Below, one piece after another: positions 31,902-35,547 of a stretch of DNA of 36,955 bases. The DNA is taken from contig NZ_VWNB01000016.1 in the NCBI RefSeq assembly GCF_013387475.1, positions 1 through 36,955 on the forward strand, read 5' to 3'. Within the stretch, counting starts at the first letter, position 1. Every line of letters begins with the position of its first letter. The notes under the pieces were generated by a model. The model was not told the DNA's origin and did not search any database. It worked only from the letters and a program-made list of their open reading frames with translations. Position numbers and translations under genes: made by a program. Source of the stretch: Mariprofundus sp. KV (GTDB taxonomy: Bacteria > Pseudomonadota > Zetaproteobacteria > Mariprofundales > Mariprofundaceae).

Positions 31902-32381
31902 TCAATCATTCAGAAGCCTGGCAAGCTGCTCAACCTCCAATTCACTGAATACAGCGATGCCGTGCCGTCTCAGTAAACGGGCAGTCACACCCTCACCTTC
32001 GACCTTCACGCCGGAGAATCTGCCATCATTAATTCGCGAGACGCCACAGGAGGGGCTGCCCTCCTTCAGAATCGCCAACCCGATCTTATGCCTGATACAG
32101 AGCGCCAGCGCTTTTTCTGCACCATCAACAAATGCATCGGTCACATCTGCGCCATGCTCTGTGCATATTTTCCCGCAACCACGCAATACAAAATCTGCAT
32201 CACCAAGCACCATCTCTGCAGGCGGCCTTGGCACAGGCAATCCACCAGCCACCTCGGGGCATATCGCAATCAGCCGTCCTTCGCTCTGCCACTGCGCAAT
32301 CAGACCAGCCTGACAACAGTCGCCACCATCGTAACGAACCTTCTCACCCAACAGGCATGCGCTTACCATAATCTTCTGCAT
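31902..32381 (-). CDS. DUF523 / TudS-like iron-sulfur desulfidase homologue
   Basis: A 159-residue stand-alone DUF523 protein. Three Cys are in the family places: Cys 9 (SACLLGEKVRYDGG), Cys 41 (AICPEVAGGLPVPRPPAE, with Glu 43) and Cys 112 (EGSPSCGVSRINDGRFSG). Characterised DUF523 members (TudS) use three such Cys to hold a [4Fe-4S] cluster that removes sulfur from thiouracils or 4-thio-UMP. The ATG at 32381 is used; a TTG at 32399 is possible but has no better site. It is the last gene of the lipocalin/YbgA cluster. Desulfidase activity is inferred from the family. Confidence 0.85.
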   Translation of the reverse strand: MQKIMVSACLLGEKVRYDGGDCCQAGLIAQWQSEGRLIAICPEVAGGLPVPRPPAEMVLGDADFVLRGCGKICTEHGADVTDAFVDGAEKALALCIRHKIGLAILKEGSPSCGVSRINDGRFSGVKVEGEGVTARLLRRHGIAVFSELEVEQLARLLND

Positions 32382-32438
32382 GATAGCATGGTTATACAAA
32401 AGCAGGGCTCACACAAGCTGCGACAGGGGAGAGCGCCA

Positions 32439-32984
32439 TCACTCATGAGCTGCCTCTCCATGGCTGACCCGTATCAGTCCATCGACATTAAAGCCGAGCC
32501 CCTTCGCTTGAACCACGAATAGAGTCATCACTGCAGGGGGTGCCTCCGGGGTTCTCGACAAAAGCCACAGGTATGATCTGTCTGGGCCGGTAACGAAAGC
32601 GTAGCGATACTCCGGATCCAGTTCGAAAACAACATATGATGCGTAAAATGGCCCGAAGAACGACACCTTAAGATAACCCTCATCTGGCTGATCAACAAAA
32701 TATGCTTTGCCTTCGGCCTGCTTCCATGAGTTGTCATCAACCGAGTAGCCCCTGTTGATCACCTTCACACCACCATCATCACGCAACACATATTCGGCAC
32801 TCACCTGAGTCAGCCCGCGCTCAAATGAGTGGTCCAGTCGAGCAATTTCATACCATTTCCCAAGATAACGGTTGAGTTCAAACCCGCTCACCGGCTGCAC
32901 GCCTTCGGGAACACCAGTACACCCATTCAAGAGCAGCAAAACCACGGAGATCAGACAGAGGCCGGCACGCCTTATTTCCAACAC
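32439..32984 (-). CDS. blc: Bacterial lipocalin lipoprotein (Blc-type)
   Basis: A 181-residue lipocalin. The N-terminus carries a lipoprotein leader ending LLLLNGCTG (lipobox Cys 22). The core begins GKWYEIARLDHSFERGL, the typical Blc motif, and later has FVTGPDRSYLWLLSRTP, including the conserved Arg near the end. Blc is anchored to the outer membrane and binds lysophospholipids or fatty acids under stress. The GTG at 32984, 19 bases past the YbgA stop, is chosen because the leader starts there; a frame reaching 33086 would overlap YbgA. Lipocalins are frequent in light- or photolyase-linked operons of other bacteria, which fits this neighbourhood. Confidence 0.88.
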   Translation of the reverse strand: MLEIRRAGLCLISVVLLLLNGCTGVPEGVQPVSGFELNRYLGKWYEIARLDHSFERGLTQVSAEYVLRDDGGVKVINRGYSVDDNSWKQAEGKAYFVDQPDEGYLKVSFFGPFYASYVVFELDPEYRYAFVTGPDRSYLWLLSRTPEAPPAVMTLFVVQAKGLGFNVDGLIRVSHGEAAHE

Positions 32985-33003
32985 ACCGGGGTATGCTTGC
33001 ACC

Positions 33004-33969
33004 TCAACGACCGGAATCTGAGAGTTCAAACAGGGCTCTGGGATATGGCTCAAGAAAGTGCTGCGAACCAAGGTAGTCATGATCAAAGCGGATCACATAT
33101 GATTTCAGCAGATGTTGCAGTGTCGCCAGCGTCACCCGCTCATCGCGGTACTCCTCAAGCGCATCAAGAAACAGTTTTTTCTCTGCACTATTCAGCCCCT
33201 CAGAGATCCAACCGAAACCATGAAAGAGGGCGTTGATAATGTTGCTCTGGCGGGGCATCTGCATCAGCGCCTCGCGGAAGGCTGTAGCGTAGGCCTGCAC
33301 CAGATCCTGCAGTGGAAGCTTCTCATGATTGGCTGCGATGCGGCCACAGACGCGCATCTGCTCCTGATGGTAGCACATCAACAACAGCTTGTGGCTGGCG
33401 TGGAAGGTTGATATAGCAGATGCTGAAGAGGCGCGCTCAAGTCCACGCAGGCGCGCCAGCGCAAACAGGCGCATTAGATAGGCCTCTCGAATCTGGAAGT
33501 TTTTCAGCCGCCCTTCATCCTCAACTGCGGCGTAGGGGAATGCCTTGATCGCCGCATAGGCGAACATGCCCATCCCCTTAATCGCTGAACTCCCCTTCAG
33601 ATCGCTACTGTAAATTTTGACCACCGACGGACCACAGGAGGGAGAGCGCCCCTTAAAAAGGAAACCGTCGATCTCTGTCAACTCAGCTCTCTGCTTGTCG
33701 ATATATGCATGCATCGCATCAGTAACATCGGCACCGCTTGAAGGCTGCACCATACGCACCTGATCTCCCTGCTGCACCAGCCGTACCGGCTGACGCGGGG
33801 TACCTAAGCCAATATCAGCCTCCGGACAAATCGTGATGATCTCAACAAACGGCTTCAAACTTTCAACCAGATCATCGGCGATCGTCTGGCCGTTGTAACG
33901 ACACGGCTCAAAGCCGAGGCAACGGCTGACAACCAGACGCGGTTTACAGGCATTCTCTAGATCATTCAT
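33004..33969 (-). CDS. ybgA: DUF523-DUF1722 protein (YbgA family)
   Basis: A 321-residue two-domain protein. The DUF523 half (about 10-155) has Cys 17 and 23 (SRCLGFEPCRYNG), Cys 48 (ITICPEADIGLGTPRQP) and Cys 112 (GRSPSCGPSVVKIY), matching the TudS iron-sulfur ligand positions. The DUF1722 half (about 185-318) shows FHASHKLLLMCYH, NALFHGFGWISEGL, KKLFLDALEEYRD and the end DYLGSQHFLEPYPR. E. coli ybgA is immediately upstream of phr (photolyase); the function is not established. AAGGAGAG precedes the ATG. The endonuclease V-like gene ends ten bases upstream, so both are co-transcribed. Confidence 0.9.
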   Translation of the reverse strand: MNDLENACKPRLVVSRCLGFEPCRYNGQTIADDLVESLKPFVEIITICPEADIGLGTPRQPVRLVQQGDQVRMVQPSSGADVTDAMHAYIDKQRAELTEIDGFLFKGRSPSCGPSVVKIYSSDLKGSSAIKGMGMFAYAAIKAFPYAAVEDEGRLKNFQIREAYLMRLFALARLRGLERASSASAISTFHASHKLLLMCYHQEQMRVCGRIAANHEKLPLQDLVQAYATAFREALMQMPRQSNIINALFHGFGWISEGLNSAEKKLFLDALEEYRDERVTLATLQHLLKSYVIRFDHDYLGSQHFLEPYPRALFELSDSGR

Positions 33970-33978
33970 ATGCTCTCC

Positions 33979-34659
33979 TTAAACCCAAAGCGCCAACTCG
34001 GAAAGTGCTGTGGAGTGCAGCAGATACTCCACCCTTCTCTCCACGACTGCAGTGCGGATTGCATCCAGCAGTACAACTGGCTGCTGTGGCGGTGGTATGT
34101 CCCCTTTGACATAACCCCACATATGCTGAAGTGCATTATACAGTCGTCCCGCATCAACTGGTGCTCTGAGCGTTTCAACCAACAGGCTGGTAAGCCCCTC
34201 CATATCATCGCGATAGCGGCCATGTGCAACTTCCGGGCCAATTACTTTATAGAGATTGGGATCATGCGCCATCACTGAATATTTATGCTGTGCCCAGAGT
34301 TGCTGGCTGTTTACGGGTAACGGAATACGCCCGGACCTCTGATCAGCAGCATATTTACCTGCTAAGAGTCTAAGCTGCTGCGCGGGCGGATCGATATAAA
34401 TATCTGGCCAGACAACTTCGCCCAGCTGTTCTGCCAGTGGTGAATGATGGTTATAACCACGCAACAGCATTTCAGAGACCAGTAGCTCATGACGCCGCTT
34501 CAACGCTTCTATGCAACCCACCCAGCGCAGAGTTTCAGGATGGTTGGCATAACCCTTTTTACCCTGATCGAGGATATTAAACATGCCGTGCAGCTCTCTG
34601 TGTTCGCCAAGCAGTTGCTGGCGAGCCAGATAACCCGGATCGATATCCCATATACGCAT
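33979..34659 (-). CDS. T4 endonuclease V-like pyrimidine-dimer glycosylase fused to a DUF1722-like domain
   Basis: A 226-residue protein with two recognisable parts. Residues 1-70 match the Pyr_excise family (T4 endonuclease V type): MRIWDIDPGYLARQQLLGEH, then RELHGMF with Arg 21 and Glu 22 aligned to the T4 Arg 22/catalytic Glu 23, then ALKRRHELLVSEMLLRGYN. Residues 119-205 resemble DUF1722: LWAQHKYSVMAHDPNLYK and NALQHMWGYVKGDIPPP. The last DUF1722 segment (YLxxQxFLxPYP) seems missing. It would excise UV dimers in DNA. The ATG at 34659 is chosen because it places the N-terminus exactly where T4 has its Thr 2 amine; an ATG at 34713 would add 18 residues. Activity is inference. Confidence 0.75.
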   Translation of the reverse strand: MRIWDIDPGYLARQQLLGEHRELHGMFNILDQGKKGYANHPETLRWVGCIEALKRRHELLVSEMLLRGYNHHSPLAEQLGEVVWPDIYIDPPAQQLRLLAGKYAADQRSGRIPLPVNSQQLWAQHKYSVMAHDPNLYKVIGPEVAHGRYRDDMEGLTSLLVETLRAPVDAGRLYNALQHMWGYVKGDIPPPQQPVVLLDAIRTAVVERRVEYLLHSTALSELALWV

Positions 34660-34734
34660 GTGTGCCAGCGTACCGTTAACGATCAAAATCTGAAACAGTT
34701 TTGCAATGGCCATCGCATCGCTAGAGTCGGCAGT

Positions 34735-35547
34735 ATGAAGCGACTGACTATCACGCTGCTTGCTCTGTTTTGCTCATCCACCGCCTGGGCTGAGGAGCAG
34801 GATGATGCACCGCCACTGTGGGAGTTGGGCATTGCTGTGGGAGGCGCATCCCTGCCACACTATATGGGCAGTGATGAGCGCTACCTTGTTGGTGCGCCTG
34901 TGCCCTACGTCATCTATCGTGGTCAGCGTATGCGCATTGACCGCTCCGGCATCACACGCAAACTCTTCGGCTTTAACAATATTAACATCGACGCATCACT
35001 GGGTGTGGGACTGCCGGTTCGCAATACCAATCGCGCCCGTGCCGGCATGCCTGAACTCAAATTCAGTTTTGAGATCGGCCCGCGTCTGAACTGGCAGATC
35101 ATCGAAGAGGAAGACCGTAAACTGATGCTGCGACTGCCCTGGCGTGGTGTGGTTGATACCTCCGGCAGCTGGCTGGGATGGGTCGTTGAGCCTGAACTAC
35201 GCCTTGAACAGCAGATCAGTGAGCAGCTGCAGCTCAATCTTGCGACCGGCCTCCTCTATGGTTCAACCGCCTATCATAAGCACTACTATGACGTGGCTCC
35301 GGCTTATGTCACGGCAACCAGATCCGCTTATCAGGCTGCACGAGGGCTGCACTCACTCTCTGCCACAGCCAGCCTTCGCTATGCCATCAGTGACTCACTG
35401 AACCTGTTTTCAGTCTTACGTTATCGCAATCTCTCTGCCGGTGTAATCACCAATAGTCCTCTGGTAAAAGATAAAAACTATGTCGCAGTTGCTGCGGGTC
35501 TGGCCTGGAGCTTCTGGAGTTCGGAACGGCGCGGTTCAGCCGATTAG
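34735..35547 (+). CDS. MipA/OmpV-family outer-membrane protein
   Basis: A 270-residue outer-membrane protein of the MipA/OmpV family. The leader MKRLTITLLALFCSSTAWA is cleaved before EEQDD; next comes WELGIAVGGASLPHYMGSDE, typical of the family. The barrel continues with GVGLPVRNTN and FSFEIGPRLNW, and the C-terminus reads AGLAWSFWSS plus a short tail. MipA interacts with murein enzymes in E. coli; many homologues are general barrels. The ATG at 34735 is used because it gives the signal peptide; the longer frame to 34489 lies antisense to the glycosylase gene. It is divergent from that gene, so a shared control region is possible. Confidence 0.85.
   Translation: MKRLTITLLALFCSSTAWAEEQDDAPPLWELGIAVGGASLPHYMGSDERYLVGAPVPYVIYRGQRMRIDRSGITRKLFGFNNINIDASLGVGLPVRNTNRARAGMPELKFSFEIGPRLNWQIIEEEDRKLMLRLPWRGVVDTSGSWLGWVVEPELRLEQQISEQLQLNLATGLLYGSTAYHKHYYDVAPAYVTATRSAYQAARGLHSLSATASLRYAISDSLNLFSVLRYRNLSAGVITNSPLVKDKNYVAVAAGLAWSFWSSERRGSAD

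Follow-up and report, generated by a model that had tools for sequence, protein, structure and literature searches.

To our knowledge, RudS is so far the only characterised context of DUF1722. This DUF1722-TudS protein, described in 2024, removes 4-thiouridine (s4U) from tRNA, and its DUF1722 domain was assigned to tRNA binding through docking and mutants, with Ser243 and Arg244 of an anticodon-side loop mattering for function (PMC11417400). RudS often sits in light-responsive operons, and among DUF1722 proteins 74.4% are joined to TudS and 21.4% are stand-alone (PMC11417400); about 4% are therefore left in other, undescribed arrangements. In Shewanella, a ybgA gene heads an operon containing photolyase (PMC4336711). 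Another system that resembles the locus studied here is T4 endonuclease V, whose catalysis depends on the amine of the processed N-terminal Thr1 plus Glu22 (PMC3285167).

The window, a stretch of 36,955 nucleotides from Mariprofundus sp. KV, holds a minus-strand gene in which a domain of the T4 endonuclease V type is joined to DUF1722. The open reading frame lies where a first-pass annotation, made by a model from the letters alone, had placed it, and every segment quoted there was recovered: QHKYSVMAHDPNLYK (residues 124-138) and NALQHMWGYVK (residues 175-185) in the fusion, and SHKLLLMCYHQEQMR with NALFHGFGWIS in its 321-aa neighbour. No paper on a Pyr_excise-DUF1722 architecture was found in the open-access literature, and automatic domain databases may list it. 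The features of the locus are as follows.

33979..34659, minus strand: Pyr_excise-DUF1722 fusion protein, 226 aa; ATG start, complement ends at 34659
34318..34659, minus strand: T4 endonuclease V-like catalytic domain, residues 1 to ~114 (Pfam core 1-75)
33982..34317, minus strand: shortened DUF1722 domain, residues ~115-226 (Pfam, hhalign, helix order, invariance)
33004..33969, minus strand: RudS-type protein, 321 aa, TudS (2-thiour_desulf) plus full-length DUF1722 (Pfam 6.9e-35, 1.6e-33)
32439..33086, minus strand: lipocalin (Blc-like), downstream (Lipocalin_2 2.5e-40)
31902..32399, minus strand: stand-alone TudS (2-thiouracil desulfurase), downstream (Pfam 6.5e-43)

Along the minus strand, the fusion is followed by RudS, a lipocalin, a stand-alone TudS, a CBS protein and a transporter. 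RudS belongs to the same apparent operon as the fusion; it starts 9 bases beyond the fusion stop, and its AAGGAG overlaps that stop codon. Around the operon, matches to consensus promoters and terminators showed no excess over shuffles. A MipA outer-membrane protein gene (window 34489-35547, plus strand) is divergent from the fusion, with a likely start at MKRLTITLLALFCSSTAWA near position 34736, so that about 76 bases separate the two starts. The adjacent protein had been called YbgA. It is instead of the RudS type, since it contains a 2-thiouracil desulfurase domain and a full-length DUF1722, whereas E. coli YbgA consists of DUF1722 alone and thus has in common with the fusion only that domain, without a fused catalytic one.

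The DUF1722 half

Pfam matched Pyr_excise (PF03013) at residues 1-75 of the fusion (E 2.3e-27, 95.6 bits against a cut-off of 23) and DUF1722 (PF08349) at residues 126-191 (E 3.7e-10, 40.5 bits against a cut-off of 22.5), and so upheld the reading of the gene as a fusion of the repair-glycosylase type. DUF1722 was also above the cut-off in the RudS-type protein, as expected from the claim that neighbouring genes both carry this domain. The match in the fusion covers profile positions 1-69 of 117, and some relatives cover 1-114. PF04463 (TudS) was absent from the fusion protein, which is thus not a RudS and, in contrast to RudS, would have no iron-sulfur site.

BLASTP between the fusion and the adjacent RudS gave an unconvincing match (22% identity, E 0.04), and profiles were therefore required to see the kinship. 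Profile-profile comparison of the two families with hhalign aligned 106 columns at 97.7% probability and E 2e-12. The weak pairwise similarity could be read as an effect of chance or composition, with the C-terminal half being merely the tail of the endonuclease. That reading is vanishingly improbable and was ruled out by the profile comparisons; DUF1722 was above the cut-off not only in the window protein but in 50 of 50 fusion-bearing genomes tested, and the helix order is equal. In the models, the DUF1722 helices span 118-132, 134-146, 153-164, 170-185 and 194-208 in the fusion and 183-200, 202-213, 220-235, 241-258 and 281-295 in RudS (pLDDT 84.6, from six sequences only). The fusion domain is one helix shorter, as RudS helix 261-275 is missing from it, and the structural likeness is one of helix order. 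Similarity between the two domains was thus found by Pfam, by hhalign and in the succession of helices, as the first-pass annotation had anticipated. No known structure matched this half of the fusion in Foldseek, and a Dali search in the RudS paper likewise failed for DUF1722 (PMC11417400).

Seven residues of the DUF1722 half do not vary among the 80 core sequences: Lys126, Tyr127, Ala131, Asn175, His179, Trp181 and Tyr212. The RudS counterparts of Lys126, Asn175 and His179 are Lys194, Asn246 and His250, which are invariant in six aligned RudS sequences, suggesting a shared binding surface. RudS Ser243 and Arg244 are not matched by conserved residues in the fusion, and in the same alignment they are missing from the window's own RudS as well; the numbering from fusion to RudS_KT is approximate, with the alignment via related RudS loci about one residue off. 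By analogy with RudS, docking on nucleic acid is a likely function for the DUF1722 half of the fusion.

The endonuclease V-like half

An AlphaFold model of the fusion, built from 82 sequences, reached a pLDDT of 96.5 and a pTM of 0.92, with the two domains as one confidently predicted body. A sequence search with the fusion protein found nothing significant among solved structures. With the model, the top four Foldseek matches in the PDB were all T4 endonuclease V (denV), at a probability of 0.99-1.00 and a TM-score by target of 0.56-0.58, with E-values that alone are not significant. The Chlorella virus pyrimidine dimer glycosylase, also of PF03013, was among the top matches in a viral structure library.

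Met1 and Glu22 of the fusion occupy the positions of Thr1 and Glu22 of T4 endonuclease V at equal spacing, without a gap from the start to the catalytic Glu. The N-terminus of the fusion can be taken as exact because a start codon stands at position 1 in 79 of 79 relatives (74 ATG, 4 GTG, 1 TTG) and an in-frame stop immediately precedes it in eight. Met1, Arg2, Trp4, Asp5, Glu19, His20, Glu22, His24, Arg45, Arg56, His57, Arg67 and Arg111 are likewise fixed throughout the 80 core sequences. Methionine aminopeptidase prefers small second residues, and Met1 is therefore probably retained owing to the invariant Arg2, in contrast to the processed Thr of the T4 enzyme. The fusion also differs from that enzyme in carrying DUF1722, which adds about 110 residues.

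Short relatives of the catalytic half alone, the "MRMW" pyrimidine dimer glycosylases, occur in Stenotrophomonas and Mycobacterium phages and on a haloarchaeal plasmid. They are 39-44% identical over the first 77-86 residues, have the start and Glu22 as in the fusion, are about 108-118 residues long when counted from the aligned start, and do not carry DUF1722. A phage origin of the fusion was rejected, since a search of 50,697 phage records, of plasmids and of IMG/VR contigs gave no full-length relative and the short phage relatives match the catalytic half only. Judging from the conserved positions, the N-terminal domain is quite probably catalytic, and we infer that the fusion would be a Schiff-base glycosylase/lyase that is docked by DUF1722 and works in light stress.

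Relatives, hosts and gene neighbourhoods

In a scan across genomes, 196 relatives of the fusion were confirmed. The best 80 of these were kept; nearly all span residues 1-226 at about 47-67% identity, and in the tree they come from about nine phyla, many of them being metagenome bins with uncertain labels. Hosts include Zetaproteobacteria, Desulfobulbaceae and other Thermodesulfobacteriota (cable bacteria included), Gammaproteobacteria, Myxococcota, Spirochaetota, Bipolaricaulota, Delongbacteria, Acidobacteriota and others, and several are from dark sediments or the subsurface. By its sequence the fusion is a genuine and widespread two-domain protein, predicted to be an enzyme. The copy in Mariprofundus sp. 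EBB-1 (L036) was placed apart from the other Mariprofundaceae copies, where tree support is weak, which suggests that it was acquired separately.

Two gammaproteobacterial relatives (L017:1501-2163 and L018:1270-1914), on very long branches in the tree, have a decayed endonuclease V half that has lost Glu22 and the N-terminal motif, with a well-preserved DUF1722-like half (RI(P/R)LP, HKYS/YKYS and HMWGYV motifs). Proteins of this type likely form a family of catalytically dead versions, suggesting that the catalytic half may be dispensable in some lineages.

A strict partnership with RudS was ruled out: of 50 genomes with the fusion, only about 8 have a second DUF1722 protein, and the fusion therefore needs no RudS partner. 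In five other Mariprofundaceae genomes (G017, G033, G040, G060 and G108), the next gene after the fusion is a TudS gene, and this linkage may be a single event in one family. Light-operon neighbours are missing at most fusion loci. Outside Mariprofundaceae, single genes of the light-stress type, in common with RudS surroundings, were seen at about a quarter of loci, taken as a raw share; they encode TspO, lipocalin, DUF1731 epimerase, SRPBCC, DUF1499 and cyclopropane synthase. The richest such context is in a Nitrococcus bin (L069:3587-7705), where RudS, photolyase, TspO and the fusion stand in a row. Related gene sets belong to the ChrR/RpoE and LitR light-stress regulons (PMC4336711, PMC5507510, PMC11417400). 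In a Kangiella genome (L101:7794-10070), three tandem paralogues (MLLRRITQHVKDQNWFAVFVDFLIVVVGVFIGIQVANWNE...) lie immediately downstream of the fusion.

ThiI is present in the window's own genome, and strong ThiI matches were obtained in 16 of 50 fusion-bearing genomes. Most of the others have a shorter ThiI-like protein; examples of roughly 350 aa were seen in L107-L110, genomes without a strong match, and the one copy scanned with Pfam (L109) is ThiI plus NFACT-R_2. This protein is possibly an alternative 4-thiouridine synthase. The strong matches alone would speak against an obligatory link to canonical ThiI, but with the shorter proteins the comparison is uninformative. Since ThiI-like genes are common everywhere, their presence says little, though it is compatible with a tRNA substrate.

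Possible substrates and role

In the scheme that we propose, the alpha-amine of Met1 would attack C1' of a damaged nucleotide with Glu22 assisting, the N-terminal domain would free the base, and beta-elimination would then cut the strand. DUF1722 would dock the enzyme on its substrate via the surface common with RudS (Lys126, Asn175, His179). The fusion would be part of a bacterial toolkit against light and photo-oxidative stress, in which RudS would pre-empt tRNA cross-linking through s4U removal, the fusion would open those tRNAs in which damage had occurred, and TudS would recover 4-thio-UMP from what is left of them. A UV or light role is somewhat likely. If one substrate is to be named, light-damaged, 4-thiouridine-bearing tRNA would be the most likely, as a tentative choice, with UV-damaged DNA close behind. 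Whether tRNA is the target instead of DNA is likewise a matter on which we lean only tentatively; the DUF1722 precedent and the RudS and TudS neighbours favour tRNA, and the known chemistry of the catalytic domain favours DNA. The complete scheme, a tRNA-directed pyrimidine photoproduct glycosylase/lyase in which DUF1722 recruits a DNA-repair fold to light-damaged tRNAs such as those cross-linked at s4U8-C13, in a pathway of avoiding, culling and salvage with RudS and TudS, is rather unlikely to hold in every part. Counting against the tRNA reading are the unmatched Ser243/Arg244 and the action of characterised catalytic-domain relatives on DNA, and the dispensable RudS partner, the mostly absent light-operon neighbours and the several dark-habitat hosts weigh further against tRNA and light.

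It is possible, if doubtful, that the fusion repairs DNA independently of light, as a glycosylase/AP lyase for pyrimidine dimers in the manner of T4 endonuclease V, that DUF1722 only helps to bind the DNA or to position the enzyme, and that the fusion does the job of photolyase in bacteria mostly without one. The characterised relatives work on DNA dimers, the catalytic positions are conserved, and the endonuclease domain is more basic than the DUF1722 part (mean charge +5.2 against +1.7). Photolyase FAD-domain matches were found in only 4 of 50 fusion-bearing genomes, a scarcity that fits a light-independent repair role. Photolyase adjoins RudS in four of the five photolyase-bearing Mariprofundaceae genomes found, and in the window's genome, which is without photolyase, the fusion takes this place next to RudS. 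However, photolyase is rare in Mariprofundaceae whether or not the fusion is present (2 of 12 with it, 3 of 49 without), so there is no pattern of exclusion and a replacement of photolyase in this family was rejected. Repair of DNA would also leave unexplained the TudS and RudS neighbours and the invariant attachment of a domain known from tRNA work. Relatives of the catalytic domain in phages and archaea manage without DUF1722. It is improbable that the endonuclease fold serves as a scaffold, either inactive or with another chemistry, for a DUF1722 job in RNA binding or modification, with UV lesions uninvolved. The divergent relatives that kept the DUF1722-like part without Glu22 and the N-terminal motif would suit such a scaffold, as would the hosts that dwell in the dark, but the N-terminus, Arg2 and Glu22 are invariant across about nine phyla in the core family, which makes catalysis hard to deny.

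4-Thiouridine is a light-sensitive tRNA modification, not damage. The first-pass annotation had taken the domain fusion as a strong hint that DUF1722 acts on damaged nucleic acid, and this stood in part. DUF1722 keeps company with UV repair, being adjacent to photolyase in sister genomes and fused to a glycosylase here, but the RudS work gives tRNA binding and s4U removal as its setting instead of damage.

The fusion provides a second conserved partner of DUF1722, of an unrelated catalytic fold for UV products, and thus an independent handle on what DUF1722 recognises. It also makes base-excision chemistry on tRNA a testable question. By analogy, some bacteria may process light-damaged tRNA using an enzyme of the DNA-repair type. 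Should the substrate prove to be DNA, DUF1722 would need a new reading as a domain that docks on nucleic acids in general, and such a reading would also touch on the so far unexplained proximity of ybgA-type genes to photolyase.
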